Assembly: GCA_937924755.1 (NCBI GenBank) | Contig: CALEVZ010000028.1 | Coordinates: forward strand, 62,001 to 126,000 | Source of the DNA: an uncultured bacterium | Lineage (GTDB): Bacteria; Acidobacteriota; Thermoanaerobaculia; Thermoanaerobaculales; Thermoanaerobaculaceae | Reading direction: 5' to 3' | Length of the DNA stretch: 64,000 nt | Shown: piece by piece, positions 26,272-30,763 of the stretch | How the letters are laid out: each line of letters opens with the position of its first letter | How positions within the stretch are numbered: position 1 is the first letter of the stretch | The notes under the pieces: generated by a model | Seen by the model: only the letters and a program-made list of their open reading frames with translations | Told to the model about the DNA's origin: nothing | The model's database searches: none | Position numbers and translations under genes: made by a program

Positions 26272-26628
26272 TCAGAGCTCACCCCGGTCCTGCAGCTCCT
26301 GACAGGCGATGCAGTGCCGAGCCCAAGGGAGTGCCTGCAAGCGCGGTGCCTCGATGGGCTGGGAGCAGCTCACACACACTCCATAGCGGCCGTTGTCCAG
26401 CCGCGCCAGTGCTTCTTCGATCAGGCGCAGCATGCGCGCCTCGTTCTCCGAGACGTAAAAGGAGAAGTCGCGTTGGAATGCGCTGGTGGCACGGTCAGCG
26501 ATGTCGGGGGCGCCCGCCTCGCTCTCCTCGCTGGTGACCTGGCGGGCGCGGCTGACGCCCTCGAGCAACTCCCGGCGCTTGGCCTCCAGGTGCTCCCTGA
26601 TCACCTCCAGATCCAGCGTCCGGCTCAC
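26272..26628 (-). CDS. DksA/TraR-family zinc-finger protein
   Basis: Protein of 118 residues with a coiled-coil N-terminal half and a C-terminal C4 zinc finger, VCVSCSQPIEAPRLQALPW then CIACQ. DksA-type proteins bind RNA polymerase through the secondary channel and modulate transcription with ppGpp; the short TraR-like members vary in role. The acidic tip residues of the coiled coil are not clearly identifiable. Starts with GTG in a GTGA overlap with the rlmH stop, and also has its own TATAAT upstream. SD GGGAGG is present. Confidence 0.88.
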   Translation of the reverse strand: MSRTLDLEVIREHLEAKRRELLEGVSRARQVTSEESEAGAPDIADRATSAFQRDFSFYVSENEARMLRLIEEALARLDNGRYGVCVSCSQPIEAPRLQALPWARHCIACQELQDRGEL

Positions 26629-27143
26629 CGCTGCCTCCCTGGTGGCGAATTATACCTCACACCCTTCCCGCCGGCCTGGCCGCGGTGGTAAGCGCCGCCG
26701 GCGTTGAGATCGAGGACGCGAAAGAGTTGCTCCAGCAGCAGCACTCGGGCGAGGGCATGGGGAAGCGTCAGCGACGAAATGGCGAGCAGATGCTGGGCGC
26801 GCACTCGCACCGCAGGGCAAAGACCCAAGTCCGAGCCGATCGCCATCACCACCCTTCCCGAGCCCAGCCACACCGCCAGCGAGGCGGCCAGCCGCTCGGT
26901 GGTCAGCTGTTGCCCACCCTCATCCAGCGCCACCAGCCGATCTGACGGCCGCAGCAGCGCCAGCAGACGCTCCCCCTCCCGCGCCCGCGCCCGCTCGGGA
27001 TCCTGCCCTCGTCCCGCCTCGGGGCGAATCCGCACCACGTCGATGCGCACGAAGCGCCGAATGCGCTCGAGGTAACCGCGCGCGAGATTCTCCCACTCCG
27101 GCTCGCCGGCTCGCCCCACCCACGCAAGAAGAATCTCACCCAT
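26625..27143 (-). CDS. rlmH: 23S rRNA pseudouridine-1915 N3-methyltransferase RlmH
   Basis: SPOUT-fold methyltransferase of 172 residues. Typical parts: LVALDEGGQQLTTERLAASL, the SAM-binding stretch VVMAIGSDLGLCPAVR where the family usually has I-G-G, and SLTLPHALARVLLLEQLFR followed by AYHR, matching the family's closing Y-H-K/R. About 20 residues follow the closing motif, an unusual C-terminal extension. It overlaps the upstream regulator gene by 8 bp and lies in the ribosome-biogenesis run. Confidence 0.9.
   Translation of the reverse strand: MGEILLAWVGRAGEPEWENLARGYLERIRRFVRIDVVRIRPEAGRGQDPERARAREGERLLALLRPSDRLVALDEGGQQLTTERLAASLAVWLGSGRVVMAIGSDLGLCPAVRVRAQHLLAISSLTLPHALARVLLLEQLFRVLDLNAGGAYHRGQAGGKGVRYNSPPGRQR
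26649..26654 (-). promoter_or_regulatory. Consensus -10 (TATAAT) upstream of dksA-holA
   Basis: A perfect minus-strand TATAAT lies 20 bp before the dksA GTG, inside the 3' end of rlmH, with GGGAGG between them. No -35 match. It may provide an internal promoter so dksA and holA are also transcribed independently. Confidence 0.5.
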
Positions 27144-28059
27144 GGGGCTGTGCGCGCCAGCGAATCAACGTCCGGCGGGACACCCCGAGGACCCGCGACG
27201 CCCGCGACACGTTGCCACCCTCCTCCGCCAGCACCCACAGGGCGTAGGCCCGCGTGACCTCGGCCAGGGAACGACGCTGCTGCACCGCCCAGGCGATCAC
27301 ACGCTCCCAGCCGTCCGGGGGAAGCCCGAGGTGATGGGGCAGGATGAGCCCCGCCGCCGCGCTCAGGCAACCGCGCTGCAGAGCCGCTTCCAGCTCGCGA
27401 AAATTCCCCGGCCAAGGGTAGTTCAACATCAGTTCGGCACACTCCGGGTGGAGGGTGAACGCCGCCTTCATCAGTCGCCCCTGACGGCGCAGGTAGGATG
27501 CAGAGGCGGGAAGGATGTCCTCCCGGCGGGCCCGTAGCGGTGGAATGTGGGCATGGTACCCCGCCAGCCGGTGGTACAGGTCGCGGCGCAGCCGTCCGCT
27601 CTCCAGGCTCTCTGCCACCGCCTCCGTGGCCGTGGCCATCACCCGGGCGCGCAGGAAACGCGCCGCCACCCCGCCCACCGGAAAGAAGCGCCGCTCTTCC
27701 AGGGTGCGCAGCAGCGCCACCTGGACCTCCGGCGCCAGCGCCTCGATGCGGTCGAACACCACCGTGCCGTCCCCGGCCTGTTCCAGCCACCCTCGCCGGC
27801 CCCCTGTTGCATCCGTGAAGGCGCCCGGCGCGTGTCCGAACAGCTCCACCGCGGCCAGGCTGGCGGGCAAGGCGCCGCAATCCACCACCACCAGCGGTCG
27901 CCCGGGACGCGAACGCCGGTGAATTTTCTCCGCCAGCAGCGACTTTCCGCAGCCGGTTTCACCCTCAAGAAGCAGGTTGAGATCGGTTGCCGCCAGGCGC
28001 GTGAGGACCTTGACCACCGCCTCTGCTGCCGGACTTGCAGTGGCCAGGAGCGCTCGCAC
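27136..28059 (-). CDS. AAA+ enhancer-binding-protein-like regulator with degenerate sigma54 motifs
   Basis: Protein of 307 residues resembling the AAA+ and Fis-type HTH parts of sigma54 activators, without any receiver or sensor domain. Walker A is GETGCGKS near residue 35. The sigma54-contact loop normally GAFTGA reads GAFTDA. Walker B reads GTVVFDRIEAL, with arginine where the hydrolysing glutamate normally sits. LRRDLYHRLAGYHAHIPPLRARREDI is conserved. The C-terminal HTH is EGGNVSRASRVLGVSRRTLIRWR. Start GTG 28059 follows the rsfS stop by two bases; the ATG at 28107 lies inside rsfS. It may no longer activate sigma54. Confidence 0.8.
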   Translation of the reverse strand: MRALLATASPAAEAVVKVLTRLAATDLNLLLEGETGCGKSLLAEKIHRRSRPGRPLVVVDCGALPASLAAVELFGHAPGAFTDATGGRRGWLEQAGDGTVVFDRIEALAPEVQVALLRTLEERRFFPVGGVAARFLRARVMATATEAVAESLESGRLRRDLYHRLAGYHAHIPPLRARREDILPASASYLRRQGRLMKAAFTLHPECAELMLNYPWPGNFRELEAALQRGCLSAAAGLILPHHLGLPPDGWERVIAWAVQQRRSLAEVTRAYALWVLAEEGGNVSRASRVLGVSRRTLIRWRAQPHG

Positions 28060-28061
28060 GG

Positions 28062-28416
28062 TCAGCCGGTGCGCAGCAGCGCCGAAACCTCCGGCGCATC
28101 TCCCCACAGCCGTTCCAGGGCGTAAAAGGCGCGGCGCTCCTCATCGAAGATGTGCAACAAGAAATCCCCGTAGTCCATCAGAATCCACCCGCCGTGGGTA
28201 TACCCCTCGACGGCCAGCGGGCGCAGGCCGCCCTCTTTCAACACCCGTCCCACCTCATCCGCCACGGCCTGCGCCTGCCGCAGCGATCCCACGGAACAGA
28301 TCACGAAGGCATCGGCAATGGAGGTGTGCGACGCGACGTCCAGCACTGTGACGTGAAAGGCCTTTTTGGCCTCCAGCGCCGACAGCGCCAGACGCACCCA
28401 GCTCCACACGCCTTGA

Positions 28417-28427
<11 letters not shown>
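28062..28427 (-). CDS. rsfS: Ribosome silencing factor RsfS
   Basis: Protein of 121 residues that binds ribosomal protein L14 and blocks subunit joining during starvation. Family signatures: VLDVASHTSIADAFVICSVGS, RQAQAVADEV, and EGYTHGGWILMDYGDFLLHIF followed by RAFYALERLWGDA. Starts with GTG 28427 and overlaps the nadD end by 11 bp. The nadD-rsfS pairing is common in bacteria. Confidence 0.95.
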
Positions 28428-30083
<1,656 letters not shown>

Positions 30084-30734: not shown

Positions 30735-30763
30735 TTTTTAGCACAGAAGGAGGGAGCTGTCAA
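30735..30763 (-). promoter_or_regulatory. Strong sigma70-type promoter of the rplU operon
   Basis: On the minus strand a perfect TTGACA (30758-30763), a 17-bp spacer and TAAAAA (30735-30740) precede rplU. The leader of roughly 35 bases carries the GGGGAG ribosome-binding site. It is the best-scoring promoter by eye in the window, fitting a ribosomal operon. Confidence 0.75.

Follow-up and report, generated by a model that had tools for sequence, protein, structure and literature searches.

A sigma54-activator-like AAA+ protein encoded behind rsfS in Acidobacteriota: a candidate natural pseudo-ATPase with a conserved sigma54-contact loop

What sets sigma54 transcription apart is that an activator ring must hydrolyse ATP for it to proceed. 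What, then, might a protein of the activator type do within a run of ribosome genes when the residue that hydrolyses ATP has been replaced? The question is raised by a gene in a 64,000-nucleotide stretch of DNA, called the window below, from an uncultured member of the Thermoanaerobaculaceae (Acidobacteriota; contig CALEVZ010000028.1, positions 62,001 to 126,000). The original prediction placed an AAA+ plus Fis-HTH protein lacking a sensory domain between rsfS and rlmH; the open reading frame, its place and the Pfam matches agree. Sigma54_activat (PF00158, E 8e-45), AAA_lid_14 (PF25601, 3e-11) and HTH_8 (PF02954, 2e-6) were identified, and the Pfam search returned no sensory domain. No family-specific equivalog reached its cut-off in Pfam and NCBIfam, the assignment being to sigma54 activators. 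A longer mechanical frame of the gene starts at 28107, within rsfS. The GTG at 28059 fits better as the start because it lies two bases after the rsfS stop (28062), same-family orthologues begin there, and the model has low confidence for residues 1-15 of the long form. Residue numbers given here are counted from 28107. The predicted loop GAFTDA and the Walker B arginine in place of the catalytic glutamate were both read in the protein, whose features are as follows.

27136 to 28059, minus strand: sigma54-activator-like AAA+/Fis-HTH protein, candidate pseudo-ATPase, 307 aa (ORF; PF00158, PF25601, PF02954)
27940 to 27963, minus strand: Walker A, GETGCGKS, residues 49-56; lysine intact, serine where activators usually have glutamate
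27808 to 27825, minus strand: L1 sigma54-contact loop, GAFTDA, residues 95-100; the same in 15/15 same-family orthologues
27748 to 27762, minus strand: Walker B, VVFDR; Arg120 in place of the catalytic Glu (codon CGC, 27748-27750)
27568 to 27588, minus strand: RxDxxxR trans (R-finger) motif, RRDLYHR, residues 174-180; intact (motif definition from PMC3419264)
27154 to 27219, minus strand: C-terminal Fis-type helix-turn-helix, GGNVSRASRVLGVSRRTLIRWR (Pfam HTH_8); strongly conserved in the family

The AlphaFold model of the long form had a mean pLDDT of 89. The nearest solved structures were NtrC1, ZraR and FlrC, and the best PDB matches were 1ojl by sequence (E 2e-49) and 1ny5 by structure (E 1e-23). 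The features by which sigma54 activators (bacterial enhancer-binding proteins, bEBPs) are recognized are present, namely AAA+ with the activator lid, a GAFTGA-type loop, the Walker A lysine, RxDxxxR and the Fis HTH, with the exception of the Walker B Asp-Glu pair, which reads D-R.

The gene order around the AAA gene is obg-nadD-rsfS-AAA-rlmH-DksA-like-holA, the holA match being weak.

30737 to 30763, minus strand: sigma70-type promoter, TTGACA-N12-TGTGCTAAA, at the head of the rplU-rpmA-obg-nadD-rsfS-... run; conserved in the family
28417 to 29088, minus strand: nadD (TIGR00482)
28062 to 28427, minus strand: rsfS, ribosome silencing factor, the constant upstream neighbour (PF02410, 5e-30; TIGR00090; synteny)
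26625 to 27143, minus strand: rlmH, 23S rRNA methyltransferase, the downstream neighbour in the family (PF02590)
26272 to 26628, minus strand: DksA/TraR-type zinc-finger protein, the conserved next gene (PF01258; TIGR02420 below cut-off)

We call the zinc-finger protein DksA-like rather than DksA because its score fell under the DksA equivalog cut-off; it could be a DksA-like factor associated with this operon, and such a gene follows rlmH in the family and at many other rsfS loci. The TTGACA-type promoter before rplU was matched by a simple pattern in 9/12 relatives and recognised by eye in the others. It overlaps the GTG (30744) that the mechanical frame takes as the start of rplU; the gene itself probably starts at an ATG some 50 bases further downstream. 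No sigma54 promoter was found at the operon head, and the whole window had 4 one-mismatch hits versus 1.9 expected. From the gene order and the conserved promoter before rplU, we infer that the AAA gene is expressed along with the ribosome genes. Because this is its basis, a tie of the protein to translation capacity, as originally suggested, is plausible at the level of co-expression only. Our literature search found no report linking rsfS with a sigma54-activator-like regulator.

When the window protein alone was used to search the genome contigs, generic activators came back and no orthologue in synteny. An orthologue 51-57% identical to the window protein was found in 14 other genomes of the family. 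The gene lies in the same operon in every same-family genome in which rsfS was found (15, the window's included), with the order from obg to the DksA-like gene kept in all copies and holA following where the contig extends far enough; in the two same-family genomes without the AAA gene, rsfS was undetectable too. Comparison of the motifs at this position, proposed as a check on the original prediction, bore it out in the family: GAFTDA was present in 15/15 copies and Walker B was D-R in 14 and D-H in one. The Walker A lysine and RxDxxxR were each found in 15/15 and the sensor-I asparagine in 0/15. Artefact or sequencing error as the source of the motif changes was ruled out by the same substitutions in 15 family genomes. 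For rsfS-linked genes compared in nine close pairs, of which four belong to the window's family, dN/dS came to 0.09-0.22; selection on the gene is therefore purifying, and it is no decaying pseudogene.

Across the class, a same-strand AAA gene lies downstream of rsfS at 69/98 loci, in 15 families, and is absent from all 20 loci of the sister family f2, from f6 and f10 and from most of f8. In f3, f8 and f12-f18 rlmH is not adjacent and the AAA gene is the last of the run where inspected; in f12 and f18 (L184, L207) the run stops after it and HD-domain-like and enoyl-CoA hydratase-like frames, as judged by eye, are convergent. The rsfS-AAA linkage also occurs in other classes, and the comparison set comprised 98 usable rsfS-linked copies from the 39 families of the phylum in which the linked gene was found. 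A search for the Acido-1 RNA, taken as a marker of the phylum, gave no hits and lacked a positive control. The arrangement differs on a Myxococcota contig (L082), where a full-length activator (frame of about 720 aa) is convergent with the rsfS-rlmH pair. In the class tree, all 67 of the 67 usable copies formed one clade versus 110 other activators, same-genome paralogues included (SH 0.987). A free search for the phylum tree placed 97/98 linked copies together, and a tree with all 98 united was 74.8 log units better than the search tree (p-AU 0.928). The simplest account is one origin, vertical inheritance and many losses.

Glutamate occupies the Walker B acid position in 108/110 ordinary activators. 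In the 98 linked copies this position is R in 28, E in 27, H in 20, G in 8, D in 6, N and Q in 3 each, and A, L and M in one each, so that it is neither E nor D in 65 copies and one of the two in 33. The glutamate has indeed been lost, as predicted: the change is fixed in the window's family and recurs in the phylum. GAFTGA with D-E at the same place, named at the outset as the pattern that would speak against the prediction, was seen in f11, f27, f37, f47, f59 and f62 and never in the window's family. Among the linked copies the tree requires at least 9 changes between acid and non-acid at this position, compared to only 2 each for the loop and the R-finger; the direction of the Walker B changes is unproven, although the outgroup is almost all Glu. 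A GxF[T/S]xA-type loop, which occurs in 84/110 ordinary activators, was retained in 62 of the 65 non-acidic copies and RxDxxxR in 63. When 20 diverse copies were aligned, four of the six loop positions and all three trans residues were invariant (7/9 in all; P 1.5e-6, hypergeometric, 31/314 columns invariant), and the Walker A lysine and the catalytic Glu fell outside the invariant columns. Retention of the R-finger is weak evidence by itself, because none of the 110 ordinary activators departs from the motif either. The subclade of f8 and f12-f18 has arginine for the Walker A lysine in 24/25 copies. Further decay was observed in f20 and f46 (L239, L264), in which the loop is also gone (GTATDV, GVATGV) and so, as aligned, is the Walker B Asp. 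In f22 and f50 (L241, L269) the R-finger is also lost as aligned, the alignment being uncertain, and Walker A is retained.

The original prediction also took GAFTDA to be degenerate and inactivating, and this part is contradicted. L008, an activator of this genome that is canonical in other respects, combines GAFTDA with an intact D-E; a D. vulgaris survey classed GAFTDA as function-compatible (PMC4641369); and NorR G266D, whose loop reads exactly GAFTDA, bound the enhancer, formed rings, hydrolysed ATP and opened the promoter (PMC2941729). On these grounds we ruled out GAFTDA as inactivating. Asp was present at the variant position in 6/110 ordinary activators sampled. VfmH, which also has a GAFTDA loop, hydrolyses ATP, its link to sigma54 being unknown (PMC10714721).

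The consequences of losing the Walker B glutamate are best known from PspF. A Vmax of 39.5 per min falls to 0.15 in E108A and 0.07 in E108Q, about 0.4% and 0.2% respectively, with a lower Km (PMC3419264, Table 1). The ATPase of PspF K42A is undetectable, and Walker B and R-finger mutants show complementation in trans (PMC3419264). With the glutamate lost throughout the window's family and repeatedly in the phylum, efficient ATP hydrolysis by the window protein is unlikely. The window protein likely does not remodel sigma54, although loss of the glutamate does not settle the matter, because PspF E108Q forms constitutive hexamers, needs ATP and its loop to bind the sigma54 holoenzyme, activates the holoenzyme on pre-melted DNA and supports slow transcription (PMC4132715). 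On duplex DNA, E108D behaves much like the wild type (PMC4132715). No Arg or His at position 108 was found in the PspF Walker B mutant work (PMC4132715, PMC3419264).

The search for rpoN, suggested with the original prediction, found it in the window genome (PF04552, 7.8e-64), which also encodes 11 other full-length sigma54 activators. As rpoN is present in 138/148 class genomes as well, a missing sigma54 was ruled out as an explanation. Co-occurrence of the AAA gene with rpoN is uninformative because rpoN is near universal. The sister family f2 and several others keep rpoN without the rsfS-linked gene, from which it follows that sigma54 function is independent of it. No partner activator with a dead R-finger and a live ATP site was present among the ten other activators whose R-finger was read by the motif scan, in which L006 was unparsed and some motifs were missed in others.

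The reading that we tentatively prefer, at a little under an even chance, is that the AAA protein is a pseudo-ATPase derived from a canonical sigma54 activator, and that it modulates sigma54 transcription without efficient hydrolysis. Its gene, descended from one for a canonical enhancer-binding protein, would have stood behind rsfS since early in the phylum. Made along with the ribosome genes, the protein would probably bind ATP, would bind specific DNA and would form or join activator rings, its loop contacting the sigma54 holoenzyme without efficient hydrolysis. It might tune sigma54-dependent transcription as a non-hydrolysing subunit in rings mixed with a canonical activator of the genome or, by another route, as a tether or antagonist of the holoenzyme. 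The activator fold, conserved HTH, intact Walker A and trans R-finger, family-invariant GAFTDA, replaced Glu, purifying selection and co-directional place in a run of ribosome genes with a housekeeping-type promoter at its head are all apparent at the level of sequence. An invariant loop speaks for a function that still involves sigma54. The catalytic residue has been lost repeatedly and the sigma54-contact part kept, a pattern suggestive of a regulator that holds on to the transcription machinery but does not drive it. The loop and R-finger could, however, be conserved for the sake of the oligomer and not for contact with sigma54; the R-finger discriminates little and the loop is also lost in f20 and f46. 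Families such as f2 do without the gene yet keep rpoN, the analysis linked no sigma54 promoter or enhancer to the protein, and some E-to-Q type changes still give slow, productive activity. A broader proposal, which we regard as doubtful, is a phylum-wide class of natural pseudo-ATPases in which ATP binding (or none) and an intact loop would hold, prime or block the holoenzyme, or poison or complete mixed rings, scaled to ribosome synthesis.

The main rival is a DNA-binding regulator independent of sigma54, in which AAA+ would serve as an ATP-gated oligomerisation scaffold and sigma70 promoters, perhaps that of its own operon, would be repressed or activated. The loss of hydrolysis, the conserved sigma70-type promoter on the gene run and an HTH that ranks with the best-conserved parts of the family are consistent with it, as is the action of VpsR and the NtrC proteins of R. 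capsulatus and Caulobacter at sigma70 promoters (PMC10274813). These precedents lack the GAFTGA loop, whereas nearly all non-acidic copies here retain it and so depart from the sigma54-independent type of bEBP, and no conserved operator was apparent by eye at the operon head beyond the promoter. We consider this account possible, if unlikely. That the protein is still an active sigma54 activator with slow or compensated catalysis, the Walker B replacement being tolerated, is improbable: the behaviour of PspF E108D and E108Q, the acidic residue in a third of linked copies (33/98) and the intact loop, Walker A and R-finger of the window protein would allow it, but Arg or His reverses the charge at the catalytic position, the sensor-I Asn is missing from all 15 family copies as well, and hydrolysis is implausible in the related subclade that lacks the Walker A lysine (cf. 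PspF K42A). A functionless relic held by its operon context (rsfS-rlmH transcription/translation coupling) would accord with repeated catalytic decay and with outright loss in f2, f6, f10 and many families elsewhere, but is very improbable given the full-length frames, the low dN/dS and the near-invariant HTH and loop.

The protein resembles the bEBPs ZraR (1ojl), NtrC1 (1ny5) and PspF in fold, domain order, loop, Walker A, RxDxxxR and HTH, and differs from them in the change of Glu to Arg, the lost sensor-I Asn and a Ser at the equivalent of the Walker A Glu43. It has no sensory domain, unlike ZraR and NtrC1; PspF also lacks one. An altered Walker B is shared with the laboratory mutants PspF E108Q and E108A and NtrC1 (3m0e), which lose hydrolysis, keep the ATP-bound state and, in E108Q, keep sigma54 engagement. 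In contrast to those mutants, the change here is natural, conserved and mostly to Arg, His or Gly, replacements for which we found no published test. A lineage that repeatedly loses hydrolysis and keeps the sigma54 loop would offer in nature what the E108Q trap offers in the laboratory. It would also be a candidate negative or accessory sigma54 regulator built into a ribosome gene run, and a convenient case for testing the role of the loop without hydrolysis. Mixed activator rings, reported or proposed for HrpR/HrpS, FleQ/FleT and VnfA1/VnfA3, offer a model for a subunit of this kind. VpsR and the R. capsulatus and Caulobacter NtrC proteins are likewise derived from activators and have given up canonical sigma54 activation, but they have lost the GAFTGA loop (PMC10274813), the reverse of this lineage, which appears to lose hydrolysis and keep the loop.
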